The position numbers and the translations under genes were made by a program. Below are positions 8,139 to 23,429 of a stretch of DNA of 37,629 bases, piece after piece; the stretch's first letter is position 1, and each line of letters begins with the position of its first letter. Below the pieces are notes generated by a model. The model was not told the origin of the DNA, did not search any database, and was given only the letters and a program-made list of their open reading frames with translations. The DNA comes from Kiritimatiellia bacterium (lineage in GTDB: Bacteria > Verrucomicrobiota > Kiritimatiellia > RFP12 > UBA1067): NCBI GenBank assembly GCA_017525225.1, contig JAFXTB010000157.1, positions 1 to 37,629 of the forward strand, in the 5' to 3' direction.

Positions 8139-8218
8139 CTTGGCATCTCCTTTGTAAGTTTACTTCGCTGTCGAAAATCGCCTCTCGCTTCCCGTACTTC
8201 CACGTCACCTTGGCGGAC

Positions 8219-8265
8219 GGCGGTCGCGCGAGGCGACCGCCCTACCGGCGCAGCAATGGCGCCGG
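8219..8265. repeat. Two adjacent palindromes, REP/BIME-like
   Basis: First palindrome: GGCGGTCGC (8219-8227) and GCGACCGCC (8233-8241), 9-bp perfect stem, 5-nt loop. Second: CCGGCGC (8245-8251) and GCGCCGG (8259-8265), 7-bp stem, 7-nt loop, only 3 bp from the first. Neither is followed by a T run on either strand, so they do not look like intrinsic terminators. They lie between the DUF1080 stop and the pyrB leader. Confidence 0.6.
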
Positions 8266-8284: not shown

Positions 8285-9448
8285 CTATTTCCAGCCGTTG
8301 GCGGCGCAGATGGCGTTGAGCGCAGCGGCAAGCGTGCAGGTGGGTGGCAGGACGCCCCCCTGCTGCAGCGTGTCCACCATGCGCTTCATGTCGATGATCT
8401 CCGACTTGCGCGCCTTCTGCGCGGCGCCGTCCAGACCCTTCAGGAAATCGCGATAGGCGTAGGCATGGCGGAGCATCTCCTCCTTGTATACGCCCTCCTT
8501 CGCATACGACACCACCTCGAGAAGCGCCGCGAGTGTCGGCGCGTCCATCTTCGAGACGTCGATCTTCGCATAGAGCCGGGCGGCCGTCTGGCGGCGAAGC
8601 GCCATCACGTCCGCTTCGTTCGCCGCCGGGCCGCCATGCGTGGTGTTGGTGTAGCGCGAGGGGATCTCGCGCAACCACACGTTGCGGAACCTGACGGGAT
8701 TTCCGTGATCCTGGAACTCCAGCGGCAGGCGAGTCGCATGCGGCGCGAGCGGACGCCTCTTGCGGTGCGTCGTGAGACCCTCCATCTCCCAGTGGTCCTG
8801 TGTCAGGACGCCATTGTGGAACACCGTCACCGAGCCCGGATGCACGAGCTGTTCCCCTTTCCAGATCGGCTGGTGGAAGACGATGTCGTACGTCTGCCAC
8901 TCGCCCGGCGCGCGCGAGGCGTTGACGAGCGGCGGATTCTCCGCATACACGGCGGATGCCTGGCCGTCGGCATAATTCGGATTGGGATTCGGATCCTTGG
9001 AGGGATCGGTCTCGTACGAATCGAGAACCTGTATCTCGTAGCTGCCCATAAGGAACACGCCAGAATTGCCGCGTCCCTGGCCTACGCCCTCCACCTTCAC
9101 AGGGCTAGCCCATTCCACATGCAGCTGGCAGTCGCCGAAAGAGTCCTTCGTCTGGATGTAGCCCGCGCCCTTGACGGACTCCATTGCGCCGTCAACGACG
9201 CGCCAGTCGGTCTTGTGGTCTACCTTCTTGTGGCGCCAGTTCCTGCGGAAGCTCTCCTCCGTGCCGTCGAAGAGCACCACGGCGTCGCTAGGCGGACGCC
9301 CCGGCTCCGCCGAAACCTTCACAGGGTTGGGACGGTTCCTGTCGTGCACGGCCCATGCGTGGCGCGCGTCGGGCACGTCGCCATATACCCCAGCCATCAC
9401 CGATTCGGCCGCCAGGAGCGCGCCTGCGGCAATCAACAGCTTCTTCAT
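8285..9448 (-). CDS. Secreted DUF1080 protein (3-keto-disaccharide hydrolase-like)
   Basis: 387 aa. Signal peptide MKKLLIAAGALLAAESVMA. The DUF1080 lectin-like fold is recognised from VVLFDGTEESFRRNW, WRVVDGAMESVKGAGYIQTKDSFGD and GNSGVFLMGSYEIQVLDSYE, ending with FQDHGNPVRFRNVWLREIP. About 110 C-terminal residues are helical and of unknown role. Family members bind or cleave (3-keto-)glycosides in the periplasm and are very abundant in Planctomycetota, Verrucomicrobiota and relatives. The start at 9448 gives a standard Met-Lys-Lys signal peptide with AAGGA 9 nt upstream; an in-frame ATG at 9457 is the alternative. It follows cstA by 46 bp in the same direction. Confidence 0.85.
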   Translation of the reverse strand: MKKLLIAAGALLAAESVMAGVYGDVPDARHAWAVHDRNRPNPVKVSAEPGRPPSDAVVLFDGTEESFRRNWRHKKVDHKTDWRVVDGAMESVKGAGYIQTKDSFGDCQLHVEWASPVKVEGVGQGRGNSGVFLMGSYEIQVLDSYETDPSKDPNPNPNYADGQASAVYAENPPLVNASRAPGEWQTYDIVFHQPIWKGEQLVHPGSVTVFHNGVLTQDHWEMEGLTTHRKRRPLAPHATRLPLEFQDHGNPVRFRNVWLREIPSRYTNTTHGGPAANEADVMALRRQTAARLYAKIDVSKMDAPTLAALLEVVSYAKEGVYKEEMLRHAYAYRDFLKGLDGAAQKARKSEIIDMKRMVDTLQQGGVLPPTCTLAAALNAICAANGWK

Positions 9449-9494: not shown

Positions 9495-11249
9495 CTACTT
9501 GGTGTTCCCCGCTATCGAACGCGCAATGCGGCTTTTAACGAGCTTGCGCATCTTGAGCGCGCCCAACGCCATCAGCACGACCGCCAGGCAGAAGAGCGTG
9601 ATGGAGCCGATGGCCGTAACGCCACCCGCCGCAAAGCCCTGCTTCATCCACTTGTCCAGGTTCTGCAGGAACAGCTGGAACACCGCCGTTCCCGAAGTCA
9701 CGACCATGAAGCACATGGGTAAGGCCGTGATCCAGAACTTGAGCTTGTTCTTGAAGAGCCAAAGCGTTGCCGTAAGCAGCGTGAGCGACGCAAGCATCTG
9801 GTTGGCGCTCGCGAACATCGTCCAGAGGTTGTTCGCCATCGACGGGTTCAACACGAGCAGATAGACGCCTATCGCAACCACGACGCCCGTAGCGAAGTAC
9901 ATGTTGCGGTTGAGACGGACGATGGCGGACGGCGGCTTCTCCGCAACGGCGGCTTCGGCCGGCTGGGCGGCAGAGGCGGTGGACCACAGCTCCTGCCATA
10001 CGAAGCGCGCAAGGCGCGTGCAGGCGTCGACGGACGTCATCAGGAACGCCGCCACGGCGAGCAGCATGAAGCTTTCGGAAGTCTTCTCCGGCAGCCCAAG
10101 CTTGCCGCAGAAGGACGCCAGCCCCTGCGCGAACAGGACGACCGGCTTGCCCTCCGACAGCCCGGCCACGAGATCCGCCTGCGTGTGCCATGCCACGGCG
10201 ATGAGCGCCAGCAGCGCCACAACGCCCTCAAGAAGCATGCACCCGTAGCCCACGGGGCGTATATGGCGCTCGTTGTCGAGCTGCTTGGACGTGGTGCCGG
10301 ACGCGACCAGCGCATGGAAGCCCGAGCATGCACCGCAGGCGACCGTCACGAACAGGAGCGGGAAGAGGTACATCGTACCCCCTCCACGCGCGGCCTTTAC
10401 CGTGAACCCCGAGAAGGCATCGATGTTGATCGTGGGGCAGACCACGAACACGGCGGTGAGGCCGATGGCCAGCATCGCGTAGAGCAGGTAGCTGTTGAGA
10501 TAGTCGCGCGGCTGCAGCAGCAGCCATACGGGCAGCGTGGACGCCACGAAGCAGTACAGGAAGAGCACCCCCACCCAGATCATGCGGGCATTGGCCGCCG
10601 TGACGCCGAACAGCGCCGTGAGGTCGCACGGGAACACTACGCCGATCCACACGAGGAAGAACAGCAGCGGCACGAACACGAAGCTAGCCACGAACACGCT
10701 CCAGCGGAAACGATAGACGCATATTCCGAATAGCGCCGCCTCGAATATGCCGAGCAGCGACGATGTGGCCACTTCTGGGTTGGAGACGAACGCATCCGCC
10801 ACCTGCCCCGTGAACACCGACAGCACCAGCACCAGCGCAGAGAAGCTGAACATCAGGAAGATCATCTTGCCTGGCCGGCCTAGTACGTCCTCGATGACGG
10901 TTCCGATAGACTTGCCCTGGTGGCGCACCGAGAGGAAGAGCGTGACCATGTCGTGCATGGAGCCTATGAACATGCATCCCAGCACGATCCAGAGCGCCAC
11001 CGACACCCAGCCGAACTGCGCGGCAAGCACTGGACCGATGATTGGCCCTGCGCCCGCGATGGCGGCGAAGTGGTGCCCGTAGAGCACCATCGGATGCGCG
11101 GGCACGTAGTCCACCCCGTCGCCCATCGTATGGGCCGGCGTGGGCCGCTCGGGATCTACGCCTATGGCCTTGGCGATGAAGCGCGAATACAGCAGGTATG
11201 CGAGCGTGAAGCAGGCCACGCCAGCCAGCAGTAGAATTGCACCGTTCAT
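9495..11249 (-). CDS. cstA: CstA/BtsT-type pyruvate or peptide transporter
   Basis: 584 aa, a polytopic membrane protein with some 15 or more hydrophobic spans. Diagnostic CstA sequence is present near the N-terminus: PAHTMGDGVDYVPAHPMVL, then HHFAAIAGAGPIIGPVLAAQFGW and GSMHDMVTLFLSVRHQGKSI. CstA/BtsT proteins take up pyruvate and possibly peptides during carbon limitation. The length is between the short BtsT-like forms and the roughly 700-aa E. coli proteins. GGAGGAAG precedes the ATG. It lies 42 bp after the aldose epimerase gene on the same strand, so it is probably in the SIS-galM-cstA-DUF1080 unit. Confidence 0.92.
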   Translation of the reverse strand: MNGAILLLAGVACFTLAYLLYSRFIAKAIGVDPERPTPAHTMGDGVDYVPAHPMVLYGHHFAAIAGAGPIIGPVLAAQFGWVSVALWIVLGCMFIGSMHDMVTLFLSVRHQGKSIGTVIEDVLGRPGKMIFLMFSFSALVLVLSVFTGQVADAFVSNPEVATSSLLGIFEAALFGICVYRFRWSVFVASFVFVPLLFFLVWIGVVFPCDLTALFGVTAANARMIWVGVLFLYCFVASTLPVWLLLQPRDYLNSYLLYAMLAIGLTAVFVVCPTINIDAFSGFTVKAARGGGTMYLFPLLFVTVACGACSGFHALVASGTTSKQLDNERHIRPVGYGCMLLEGVVALLALIAVAWHTQADLVAGLSEGKPVVLFAQGLASFCGKLGLPEKTSESFMLLAVAAFLMTSVDACTRLARFVWQELWSTASAAQPAEAAVAEKPPSAIVRLNRNMYFATGVVVAIGVYLLVLNPSMANNLWTMFASANQMLASLTLLTATLWLFKNKLKFWITALPMCFMVVTSGTAVFQLFLQNLDKWMKQGFAAGGVTAIGSITLFCLAVVLMALGALKMRKLVKSRIARSIAGNTK

Positions 11250-20209: not shown

Positions 20210-21490
20210 CTATTTCGCCGCCGCACAGTTCGCCAGCTGCGCCCTTGAAAAGCCCATGGCGACATCGCCGATGGCGCGCGCGGCGAGATTAAGCCACTCG
20301 AAGCGGGCCTTGCCGTAGTTTTCACGCGGGGCATTTGCCTGGCGCGGCGCAAAGGGCGAGAGAAGCAGCAGTCGTCCATCGGAGCAGAAGTCGAAATCGC
20401 GGCCACCCGGCTTGTAGTAGCGCCCCATGCCTTCTGCAAGCAGATGCACTACGCGGCCGCCATGCGCAAGAGCCGCGGCTTTAACGGCCTTTTCGCCTGG
20501 AGAAATCCAAGGGCTCGCCAGGACAACTCCGCGCTCGGCCTTCGAGCCAAGCTTCGAGACAAGCTCTTCAATCTTGCCGGCAGGAGTCGCCGTGGAGATT
20601 CTCACGCTCGCAAGAAGCGGAGCATCGAGGAGAAACGGGTTGCCCATGGCAGTCCAAGCGAGGGGGCGAGGGGCGACAGCAAGCGTACTACAACAAGTAT
20701 TGCCGGAGCCACCTACCGCTTGCTCCTTGCTGCCGTGCGCTTGCCCCTTGCCGCCGTACGCTTGATGTTCCCCGAACGCCCGCTGCAGCCGATTCCCCTT
20801 CCGGGGCTTTGCTATCTCCTCGCCCGTTTCCAATTCCCACAATTCGCAATCTTCCCCAACCCCGCCGCCGTCATGCGAAAACGCCCTGAAATCCCAGCTG
20901 TCGGCGCCGGCAACACCAGCAAGCGTTTCATCTGCGCGATCAAGCCGCCAGTGCCTGAATCCCATCACTTTTCTGAAGAGTCCGGGGTTGTGCTCCTTTA
21001 TCCAGCGCCGCTTCGCGTTCGAAAGCACATAGTCGATCTGGCGATGAAGCTGCCCTTTTGCAAGGCAAACAGAATCGCGCCAAAGGGGGCACCACACCCG
21101 GCGCCCGATGCGCCTTTCGACTTCTCCGGCGAAGAAATCCACCACCGTCTCAAGATCGACCATCCCTTCCGCCATTATGAAGACCACGCCATGGAAATGA
21201 TCGGGCATGATCGCGTTGTATGTCGCCCGCACGCCTGGAAACTTCGCCTCGATCGCCTGCCAGGCATCATATACGGCACGCCCTTCCTCCGAACGTTCGA
21301 CACCCCACTCGCGAATGGTGCCGAAAATCGAAGCGCGCGGTTCGGTGACAAGCGTTATCATGTAGTTACAGCGAGAATCGTAACGCCAGCCAAGAAGCCC
21401 CTTGTGGTGCATTCGGGTAACAGCAAGCGTACTACAGCAAGCCGATTCTCGGCAACTCTGCTTCATCATCTCGCTTCCTTGCCACATCAT
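20210..21490 (-). CDS. REP-associated-type tyrosine transposase (Y1/HUH) fused to a Rossmann-like domain
   Basis: 426 aa from the first ATG after GGCGGAG at 21490; the longer open frame to 21703 lies inside the neighbouring gene. Residues 35-180 are a Y1 transposase domain: YDSRCNYMITLVTEPRASIF, the metal-binding HUH motif MPDHFHG (H98, H100) and candidate nucleophile Y154 in QIDYVLSNAKRRW. A repeat-rich linker (about 225-280) follows. Residues 283-426 (GNPFLLDAPLLASVRIST, ERGVVLASPWISPGE, FCSDGRLLLLSPF) resemble a DprA/LOG-like nucleotide-binding fold; this part is inference from pattern. Such single-copy RAYT relatives act on short palindromes rather than on an insertion sequence, and I see no IS ends. 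A REP-like palindrome pair lies at 8219-8265. Confidence 0.8.
   Translation of the reverse strand: MMWQGSEMMKQSCRESACCSTLAVTRMHHKGLLGWRYDSRCNYMITLVTEPRASIFGTIREWGVERSEEGRAVYDAWQAIEAKFPGVRATYNAIMPDHFHGVVFIMAEGMVDLETVVDFFAGEVERRIGRRVWCPLWRDSVCLAKGQLHRQIDYVLSNAKRRWIKEHNPGLFRKVMGFRHWRLDRADETLAGVAGADSWDFRAFSHDGGGVGEDCELWELETGEEIAKPRKGNRLQRAFGEHQAYGGKGQAHGSKEQAVGGSGNTCCSTLAVAPRPLAWTAMGNPFLLDAPLLASVRISTATPAGKIEELVSKLGSKAERGVVLASPWISPGEKAVKAAALAHGGRVVHLLAEGMGRYYKPGGRDFDFCSDGRLLLLSPFAPRQANAPRENYGKARFEWLNLAARAIGDVAMGFSRAQLANCAAAK
20676..20697. repeat. 22-bp direct repeat, copy 1 (transposase linker)
   Basis: Matches 21420-21441 at 21 of 22 bases, both copies within the transposase gene, 744 bp apart and in the same frame. 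Each encodes the end of CCSTLAV. Internally it is a 14-bp unit CAGCAAGCGTACTA followed by a partial second unit. Confidence 0.7.
20717..20765. repeat. 21-bp imperfect tandem repeat in the transposase linker
   Basis: Two units (20717-20737 and 20738-20758) plus a partial third beginning at 20759, all starting CGCTTG. On the coding strand they give the low-complexity stretch YGGKGQ-AHGSKEQ-AVGG, i.e. one seven-residue unit per repeat. Confidence 0.65.
21420..21441. repeat. 22-bp direct repeat, copy 2 (transposase N-terminus)
   Basis: Partner of 20676-20697. It lies between the chosen start codon and the Y1 domain and encodes part of SACCSTLAVT. Confidence 0.7.
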
Positions 21491-21518: not shown

Positions 21519-23429
21519 TCACTTTCGACCTGCGGCATTCGCATCCAACGGAATGAATCCAAGCGCGAGAGCCGGGGAATCGGGCGACAACCGGAAATCG
21601 TAGTTCTTCGCATCGACAAACCCCGGATCGGCGAAGACGCTGCCCGTCTCGTGCCGCCGACGTCGCCATTCCTTCCAGGAAAGACCGTCGAACACGGCCT
21701 CACCCTCGCCCTTCAGGTCATACCACACGTTGTTCGCCCATACCCCGTATATCTCGCACGCCCGCGGACTAGCCATGCGGCAACCGTCGCTCAGGACGAT
21801 ATTGTTCACGAAATGGAGCGAAGTCGGTACGCCATGCTTGTGGATGCGGTAGAAGCGGATCGCGCCAAACTCCCGGTTCCAGGCGAAGATGTTGTTGCGT
21901 ACGATGTTCCCGGCTCCGAAGTGCTCGTAGAAGTTCGCGTCCGTTGTGTTCCAGACCATGTTCCTCTCGAGCACCACCCCTTCCGTACCCTCGTCGCAGT
22001 ACAGTCCAGAACCTCCGTAGGCATAGGTCCTGACGTCGTGGATGACGTTGTCGTGGACGGTCGTGCCGAAGCTCGTGCCAAGCAGATAGATGCCTGCCAT
22101 GTCGCTCATGAGGCCAAGGCCGATGTTCCAGATCCGGTTGAAGGCGATCTCGTTGCGCTGGGCTACCGACCCCTGGTAGCCCTGCGTCCAGCCCACGGAG
22201 ATGCCCGTATAGAGCATGTCCGTGATGTCGCAGTGCACGACCCTGCTGTCCGAACAGTCGGCGATGGCGATGCCGCACCCTTCTGGATTGTACCGCCCGC
22301 CCGTGCGGATCGTGCAATTGGACACAAGATTGAACGCCGTGGAGGTCCGTGCCGTCGGAAAGACAAACCTGCGGCCCACGATCGGGCGCTCCACCGTGGA
22401 TCGCGGCTCGCGCTCGCCCATCCATACCCCGCCCGCGCCGATGTCCTCCATCGTGCAATCGACGATGCGGTTCGAGATGCAGCCGTCGTCCAGGCGGAAG
22501 GCGTGATTCGCCGTGTGCGCAACACGGCATTTCTCGAACGTACAGTTGCGTGCGCCCAGCGCCTTGATCGTGCCGCCATCGGTCGATGCCGCCTGGAACT
22601 GGGCTATCTGATGCGGCCCACCTTCCTCGCCGGGGGAGACATCGAACGACGCATGCTCGAATGAGATGTTTCGAAAGACCACGTTCTCCACGTACCGGCC
22701 GTTTGCGGGATCGCCTCGAAGCTCTACGAGCGACGAGAGCCCGTATCGCGGCGCGTAGGCAACAAGGGCATCGGGCCTCTCGCCCGGCAGTGGACGATAG
22801 AGAACCTTTCCTCGCTTCACGTCCAGCAGCCACTGCCCTGGCACCTTGAAGGCAGTGCGCACGTTCTCGAACGCCACAAGCACAAGCTTCGGGTTCCACT
22901 CCAGGTGGTTGGTACCCTCCGCCACCCACGGCTCGTGGAAGAGCGTGGAGACGCGCCTCTTCGCCCTGTCGTAGCCGAAAAGCCTGCGGCGCGCGTAGCT
23001 CCACTTGACGATGACCCCCATCTGCACGTATTTGAGCTCGTCCTCATCAAGCTCTCCAAGGACGTCGATGACATCGTTCGTGAAGGTCAGCTCCTCCATG
23101 TAGCCGAGCCGCCTGCCGTCGACATCCCCGTATTCGCGCTGCTCGCCGCCGGCAACGGTGAGATAGCCCTCGGCCGGCAGGCGGGCGCACGGGGCGCGGC
23201 GACCGGCGACCCAGAGCTGGTCGAAGAAGAACCCCGGCGACGGCGCCTCCCAGACGCCGTCGCCGCGATCAACCCAGGGACCAAGCTTCACGCCGCCAGA
23301 GACGACCGCACCATCCTCGCCCACGAACTCCTTGCCGGAGTCATCCGGCGTAAGGACAATGGGCTTGTCGATGAACGTCATCCCCTTGAAGACGACCGCA
23401 GCAAGCGCAATCTGTACTGCAGGGATCAT
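21519..23429 (-). CDS. Right-handed parallel beta-helix enzyme, GH141-like
   Basis: 636 aa. A weak signal peptide-like start (MIPAVQIALAAVVFKG) is followed by an N-terminal sandwich with the sequence FENVRTAFKVPGQWLLDVKR and GKVLYRPLPGERPD, which resembles the GH141 hallmark (LDxPGEWYLD...LYYxPxPGE). The second half is a beta-helix with repeated VVHCDITDMLYTGISVGW, NEIAFNRIWNIGLGLMSDMA, TVHDNVIHDVRTYAYGGSG and GVVLERNMVWNTTDANFY. GH141 includes an alpha-fucosidase/xylanase acting on complex pectin; substrate here is not determined. No Shine-Dalgarno precedes the ATG at 23429. It lies 27 bp after the SDR stop, so translational coupling is possible. It ends 28 bp before the transposase start. 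Confidence 0.75.
   Translation of the reverse strand: MIPAVQIALAAVVFKGMTFIDKPIVLTPDDSGKEFVGEDGAVVSGGVKLGPWVDRGDGVWEAPSPGFFFDQLWVAGRRAPCARLPAEGYLTVAGGEQREYGDVDGRRLGYMEELTFTNDVIDVLGELDEDELKYVQMGVIVKWSYARRRLFGYDRAKRRVSTLFHEPWVAEGTNHLEWNPKLVLVAFENVRTAFKVPGQWLLDVKRGKVLYRPLPGERPDALVAYAPRYGLSSLVELRGDPANGRYVENVVFRNISFEHASFDVSPGEEGGPHQIAQFQAASTDGGTIKALGARNCTFEKCRVAHTANHAFRLDDGCISNRIVDCTMEDIGAGGVWMGEREPRSTVERPIVGRRFVFPTARTSTAFNLVSNCTIRTGGRYNPEGCGIAIADCSDSRVVHCDITDMLYTGISVGWTQGYQGSVAQRNEIAFNRIWNIGLGLMSDMAGIYLLGTSFGTTVHDNVIHDVRTYAYGGSGLYCDEGTEGVVLERNMVWNTTDANFYEHFGAGNIVRNNIFAWNREFGAIRFYRIHKHGVPTSLHFVNNIVLSDGCRMASPRACEIYGVWANNVWYDLKGEGEAVFDGLSWKEWRRRRHETGSVFADPGFVDAKNYDFRLSPDSPALALGFIPLDANAAGRK

Follow-up and report, generated by a model that had tools for sequence, protein, structure and literature searches.

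The described systems closest to the gene studied here are the REP-associated tyrosine transposases (TnpAREP/RAYT; class 2 of Quentin et al. 2018, RAYT groups 1-5) and the TnpA proteins of the IS200/IS605 elements, such as IS608 and ISDra2. The published TnpAREP subclasses have median lengths of 148-325 aa; the text describing them mentions no DprA-like domain, and unexpectedly long proteins were discarded in that survey (PMC6006769). In subclass 2.4, REP insertions occur in frame within the gene (PMC6006769). Typical REPs are spread genome-wide and tnpAREP is usually present as a single copy, while REPtrons with locally concentrated REPs are known in Marinomonas (PMC8266576). The second domain considered below resembles DprA/Smf (PF02481). 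In S. pneumoniae DprA, the RecA-contact residues are E235, M238, D243 and E265 and the dimer zone spans 249-275, and R52 of H. pylori DprA, the equivalent of S. pneumoniae R115, is crucial for ssDNA binding (PMC4066776). ShosA, the DprA-like antitoxin of the E. coli ShosTA system, is a DNA-binding protein (review PMC12593503) and, unlike the proteins described here, stands alone without an HUH domain. A fusion of a RAYT with DprA was nowhere described in the literature accessible to us, a scope outside which most subscription papers and supplements fall.

The gene lies in a 37,629-nt stretch of a Kiritimatiellia bacterium genome (hereafter the window), in which positions 20210-21490 of the minus strand form a single unbroken frame of 426 aa. 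By ORF calling and family alignments, this frame encodes an RAYT-like HUH/Y1 transposase joined to a DprA-like domain. It sits inside a 497-aa ORF with a GTG start at 21703, and because the conserved core of the family starts at about residue 31, the true start of the protein may be M27 (21412) or M8 instead of M1 (21490). MPDHFH at residues 95-100 and the three C-terminal motifs listed in the preliminary description, GNPFLLD at 283-289, GVVLASPWISPGE and CSDGRLLLLSPF, are all present in the protein.

The HUH/Y1 domain occupies residues ~40-172 (20975-21373, minus strand) and was modelled with a pLDDT mostly above 94. In a structural alignment with the whole protein model, it was closest to the REP-bound TnpAREP structure 4er8 (Z 13.4, rmsd 5.2) and matched IS608/ISDra2 TnpA, which has the same catalytic fold, at Z 10-12; a family profile searched against the PDB likewise found IS200/TnpAREP structures (2.8e-8 and 7.4e-6). 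The window protein alone gave no match in Pfam-A, and the NCBIfam model REP_Tyr_transpos matched its residues 42-161 below the cut-off (E 2.9e-4, 20.8 bits vs 80). At the family level, REP_Tyr_transpos matched 44/44 members at E up to 0.01 (best 2.5e-15), and Pfam Y1_Tnp matched 25/31. Across 44 diverse family proteins M95, P96, H98 and H100 of the HUH metal-binding motif MPDHFH (21191-21208, minus strand) are invariant, as are the presumed catalytic Tyr154 (21029-21031, minus strand) and N158. The HUH motif is shared with TnpAREP/RAYT, and so, in most family members, is the single catalytic Tyr followed by N-P; the window copy has A159, whereas 42/44 members have P at this position. The protein combines an HUH motif and a single catalytic Tyr with a predicted TnpAREP fold, as RAYT/TnpAREP proteins do, and the initial assignment to an RAYT-like HUH transposase was borne out, with an intact HUH/Y1 domain whose closest solved structures are TnpAREP 4er8 and the IS200 transposases. 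By analogy with these enzymes, we infer that the HUH domain would cleave hairpins.

Unlike IS200/IS605 TnpA, the family has an additional C-terminal domain. It had been described as a DprA/LOG-type domain beginning at residue 280, past a repeat-rich linker. A domain past such a linker is indeed present, but its predicted fold begins earlier, at about residue 173: the first strand and helix (residues 173-195; 20906-20974, minus strand) are separated from the core (residues 280-412; 20255-20653, minus strand) by a repeat-rich insertion of low confidence (~residues 196-278; 20657-20905, minus strand; pLDDT mostly <50) that splits the domain. This insertion is missing from all seven own-genome paralogs in the family alignment.

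AlphaFold models of the whole window protein and of the isolated 155-residue domain of a Bacteroidales relative, L117 (pLDDT 96.8), placed ShosA and DprA well above all other structures for this part of the protein, and the profile searches agreed. The best structural match of the L117 domain was ShosA (PDB 8zva; Z 12.4, rmsd 3.0, 133 residues aligned, ~14% identity), followed by DprA of three species (Z 9.4-10.9) and then by LOG proteins (Z 5.5 and 5.3), and Foldseek gave the same ShosA/DprA ranking. For the whole window model, the values were Z 13.6 for ShosA, ~12 for H. pylori DprA and 11.3 for S. pneumoniae DprA. A profile of the C-terminal domain searched against the whole PDB found DprA alone at E up to 0.1 (best 1.1e-5), and the profile of the entire family found DprA structures at 2.4e-4. 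An hhalign comparison of the domain profile with 11 canonical DprAs gave E 0.006 and is not counted as support because its probability was just 6%. Pfam PF02481 (DprA) matched no family member, and neither Pfam-A nor NCBIfam contained a model covering the C-terminal part. The predicted models thus show a DprA-type Rossmann fold, so that of the original proposal the DprA side stood (DprA/ShosA, Z 9-12), in the form of a truncated DprA. Membership of the LOG family is improbable, its matches being weak and far under those of DprA.

The domain shares with DprA the Rossmann core, the G-N..LL region and, in most members, the Arg of the GSR/GTR loop. It differs in having CSR/VSR-like sequences in place of GSR and SPxISPGE in place of SGxAxGxD, and in missing the final portion of the DprA fold, to which the dimer and RecA-contact region belongs. 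Since the L117 domain aligns solely to residues 70-218 of S. pneumoniae DprA (and 8-153 of H. pylori DprA), the dimer zone and the RecA-contact patch fall outside it, a judgement based on the aligned range and not on individual residues. In the C-terminal profile alignment, the near-invariant Arg of the family falls on the arginine of the GTR loop in H. pylori DprA. An Arg is present at this position in 39/44 members (89%) and in 26/26 sequences of alignment A7, whereas the window copy has Thr300 (20591-20593, minus strand). The resemblance to DprA and ShosA suggests that the domain would bind ssDNA.

Two other functions of this domain were considered. It might act as a recombination mediator that hands the strand to RecA after the HUH cut, in which case homologous recombination or gene conversion would spread the hairpins or the whole gene. 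On ssDNA, DprA acts as a mediator for RecA (PMC4066776), ShosA, the closest fold, has been described as likely promoting homologous recombination (PMC12593503), and the mode by which REPs spread is described as unknown (PMC8266576), all of which would fit. However, the RecA-contact residues and the dimer zone lie outside the aligned DprA range, and a full RecA-loading role becomes less likely because the RecA-contact surface is missing; moreover, the mediator role is already filled by a canonical dprA in the same genome. We therefore consider this function unlikely. A replacement of the host DprA by the fusion was rejected as well, the genome having its canonical dprA on contig C6 (PF02481) together with a ComEC-type Competence match. 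The second alternative takes the S-P-G-E loop (S330-P-G-E333; 20492-20503, minus strand), which is a signature of the family, as an active or binding site, the domain then being an enzyme or a nucleotide sensor of SLOG type through which a small molecule controls the HUH domain. The invariance of S330, E333, P361 and L375 in 44 proteins and the distant LOG matches (Z 5.5 and 5.3) agree with this, but structurally the DNA-binding DprA/ShosA branch is much closer than LOG, and the Arg conserved in the family is that of ssDNA binding, making such a sensor quite improbable. An ssDNA-binding role is the one we retain.

The two domains occur together well beyond the window. The genome of origin, a 180-contig assembly, contains eight diverged family members including the window copy, and with profile A1 the family was found in 36/41 related genomes, where a single genome had as many as 17 matches, some of them partial. 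When 84,980 species genomes were scanned, 183 relatives emerged, the best 80 of which were retained; these came from Bacteroidales (Prevotellaceae, Muribaculaceae and others), Lentisphaeria, Kiritimatiellia and other Verrucomicrobia bins, and one from a bin labelled Neomarinimicrobiota. The relationships of the hits would point to the Lentisphaeria/Kiritimatiellia side of Verrucomicrobiota for the host of the window itself. In 76/80 of these best loci, the HUH motif is in the same ORF as the DprA-like domain; of the other four, two carry an HUH motif upstream but in a different frame, and a third is located where its contig begins. Among the carriers of this architecture are two named strains, Oligosphaera ethanolica DSM 24202 and Prevotella lacticifex JCM 34664. 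An artefact, produced by a frameshifted neighbour gene or by assembly, might be suspected from the fragmentation of the window genome into 180 contigs, but it has next to no probability, because the same architecture recurs in eight paralogs, in the related genomes and in most of the best 80 of 183 loci, named strains included. A recent join with a frameshifted neighbour, raised as a caveat in the preliminary description, is ruled out by this recurrence, and the wider search asked for there showed that the architecture recurs in Bacteroidales and in Lentisphaeria/Kiritimatiellia. This appears to be a large, previously undescribed family of gut and rumen Bacteroidales and of Lentisphaeria/Kiritimatiellia. 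In one of the relatives, L161, the sequence diverges from that of the close relative L148 inside the C-terminal domain, and the end of the DprA-like part appears to be lost.

The evolutionary distances of the two domains correlate strongly (Mantel r 0.83; best of 2000 permutations 0.33), as expected from joint inheritance since a single fusion. Most close pairs had dN/dS values under 0.35 in the HUH as well as the DprA-like domain, and two pairs had values of 0.33-0.55; purifying selection acts on both domains in the majority of the close pairs. The truncated DprA-like domain was probably gained once, at the C-terminus of an RAYT-type HUH/Y1 family. We count the one-ORF linkage in 76/80 loci, the correlation of 0.83 and the low dN/dS in favour of a joint function of the two predicted domains, in line with the functional pairing that the preliminary description had thought possible. 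A search of plasmid and phage collections did not find the fusion; the matches covered 40-44% of the query and the HUH part only, and spread by plasmid or phage was accordingly set aside. A defence-system library gave marginal matches only.

For hairpins near the genes, we compared intervals comprising a family gene and 300 bp on either side with control intervals of equal length from the same loci, counting an interval as positive when it contained two or more recurrent hairpin segments. Recurrent hairpins were found in 46/114 family intervals and 7/191 controls (odds ratio 18; Fisher p 4e-16, a value that is too small and overstates independence because the family intervals include orthologous pairs). 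They lie upstream, downstream and in frame within the family gene, and in one relative the in-frame hairpins have grown into a long run of peptide repeats. As with TnpAREP/RAYT, hairpins flank the gene in many members and diverged copies occur within one genome, and the in-frame insertions resemble those of subclass 2.4. A difference from TnpAREP/REP is that the hairpin types searched are confined to family loci and that many diverged copies per genome are possible. All 18 matches of CCCRTGCAAMACTC in the five genomes searched were at family genes, in four of the genomes, and its outermost copies flank the gene on both sides in the same orientation. Both genome matches of the hairpin of the C5 paralog were at that paralog, and a third type, in two Bacteroidales genomes, matched only at or within ~2 kb of a family gene. 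Dispersed REPs were thus rejected for these three hairpin types, which were searched genome-wide. A repeat confined to such loci could, however, be a by-product of slippage instead of a substrate. Hairpins on the same strand at the left and right ends were seen at the CCCRTGCAAMACTC loci and at L083 and are absent in the window; such hairpins at both borders in one orientation, in the loci examined for two hairpin types, are a further likeness to IS200/IS605 TnpA.

In the linker of the HUH protein, the copy number of in-frame hairpin arrays varied between loci L033/L136 (G036:C96) and L032/L151 (G040:C175), where the peptide repeat AHGSARAKLSGVAEP is present about three and about six times in genes otherwise 97-98% identical. 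The own-genome paralog on contig C5 (L016) lies between 48-bp direct repeats (8210-8257 and 9686-9733) within which a small ORF begins (MKCIVELFGDDRNGR); this paralog has a 43-bp hairpin repeat in the linker and at the 3' end.

No recurrent hairpin was found at the window gene, which has copies of a 27-nt repeat only, and the seven paralogs in the same genome all fell short of the hairpin threshold as well. One copy of the repeat lies within the linker (20671-20697, minus strand; CTTGTTGTAGTACGCTTGCTGT core) and another directly upstream of the conserved core (21415-21441, minus strand; CTTGCTGTAGTACGCTTGCTGT core); the repeat search also detected a degenerate inverted copy within the linker (20747-20773, plus strand). 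The two minus-strand copies have the form CTTGCTGT-N6-CTTGCTGT, which is also present eight times within ~10 kb of contig C94 of the same genome (L020), several copies being near ORF boundaries, and three times on contig C137 (L021). Contig C94 carries Mu-like prophage genes (gpT, F).

By its sequence, the window copy is a diverged member of the family, in which the catalytic residues are intact, Thr replaces the putative DNA-binding Arg and no cognate hairpin is recognisable; it may be specialised or decaying. That it is a decaying, non-functional relic of a functional family, which would not conflict with the explanation preferred for the family as a whole, is suggested by the Arg to Thr change at 300, by A159, by the repeat-rich insertion that splits the DprA-like domain and by the lack of a recurrent hairpin. 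On the other hand, the 426-codon frame is intact, none of the catalytic residues is replaced and the models of both domains are of high confidence, and we regard a relic as an unlikely state of this copy.

Taken together, the family is best read, with a probability of about 0.6, as an HUH/Y1 endonuclease that acts as a hairpin-specific nickase with a built-in DprA-like clamp for ssDNA. The HUH domain would recognise a hairpin in single-stranded DNA that borders its own gene, and would cut beside this hairpin through Tyr154, as TnpAREP and IS200/IS605 TnpA do, while the DprA-like domain would grip the adjacent single strand, either to keep it available for strand transfer or to shield it. The hairpin-substrate part of the model rests on the relatives because the window is without a recurrent hairpin.

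The observations on mobility of the family genes are suggestive only. L148 and L161 come from two genomes within a single genus; their genes are 87-94% identical in two main aligned pieces and the flanks are unrelated. L149 and L163, from different families, share 94% identity over 1.6 kb, compared with 72% over 432 bp for the canonical dprA of their genomes. Binning errors are possible in both pairs, because the genomes are probably MAGs and because similarities between G036 and G040 conflict. In these latter two genomes, the family loci and their flanks are ~91-97% identical, whereas dprA (L182 vs L183) is only 74% identical, which could reflect mixed bins or exchange and calls for caution in claiming transfer on the basis of these assemblies. 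Among the compared loci, in MAG data, no empty site was shown, and no set of near-identical copies was seen within one genome. The own-genome paralog on contig C134 (L018) lies between 114-bp direct repeats (8958-9071 and 10463-10576) that are 99% identical, and that may be a long target-site duplication. They contain a promoter-like region and the opening codons of a small gene whose product begins with the AT-hook-like GRPRGRPP; downstream, this small gene is present in full, and a similar region is found on C68.

The spread of REP hairpins and their transposases has been described as an open question (PMC8266576). The fusion of a transposase to an ssDNA-handling fold suggests that the limiting step may be the control of the released single strand, and in this family cutting and strand handling could be studied together in one and the same protein. 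We would put forward only tentatively, as a doubtful proposal, that these genes form a distinct class of single-strand mobile elements, with an HUH nickase, its own DprA-derived strand-handling module and private hairpins. Were this true, some hairpins would multiply in frame inside their own gene, and a single polypeptide would link cleavage with strand capture or recombination as the element spreads. With this family, a predicted DprA-like fold is also known from a context other than natural transformation.
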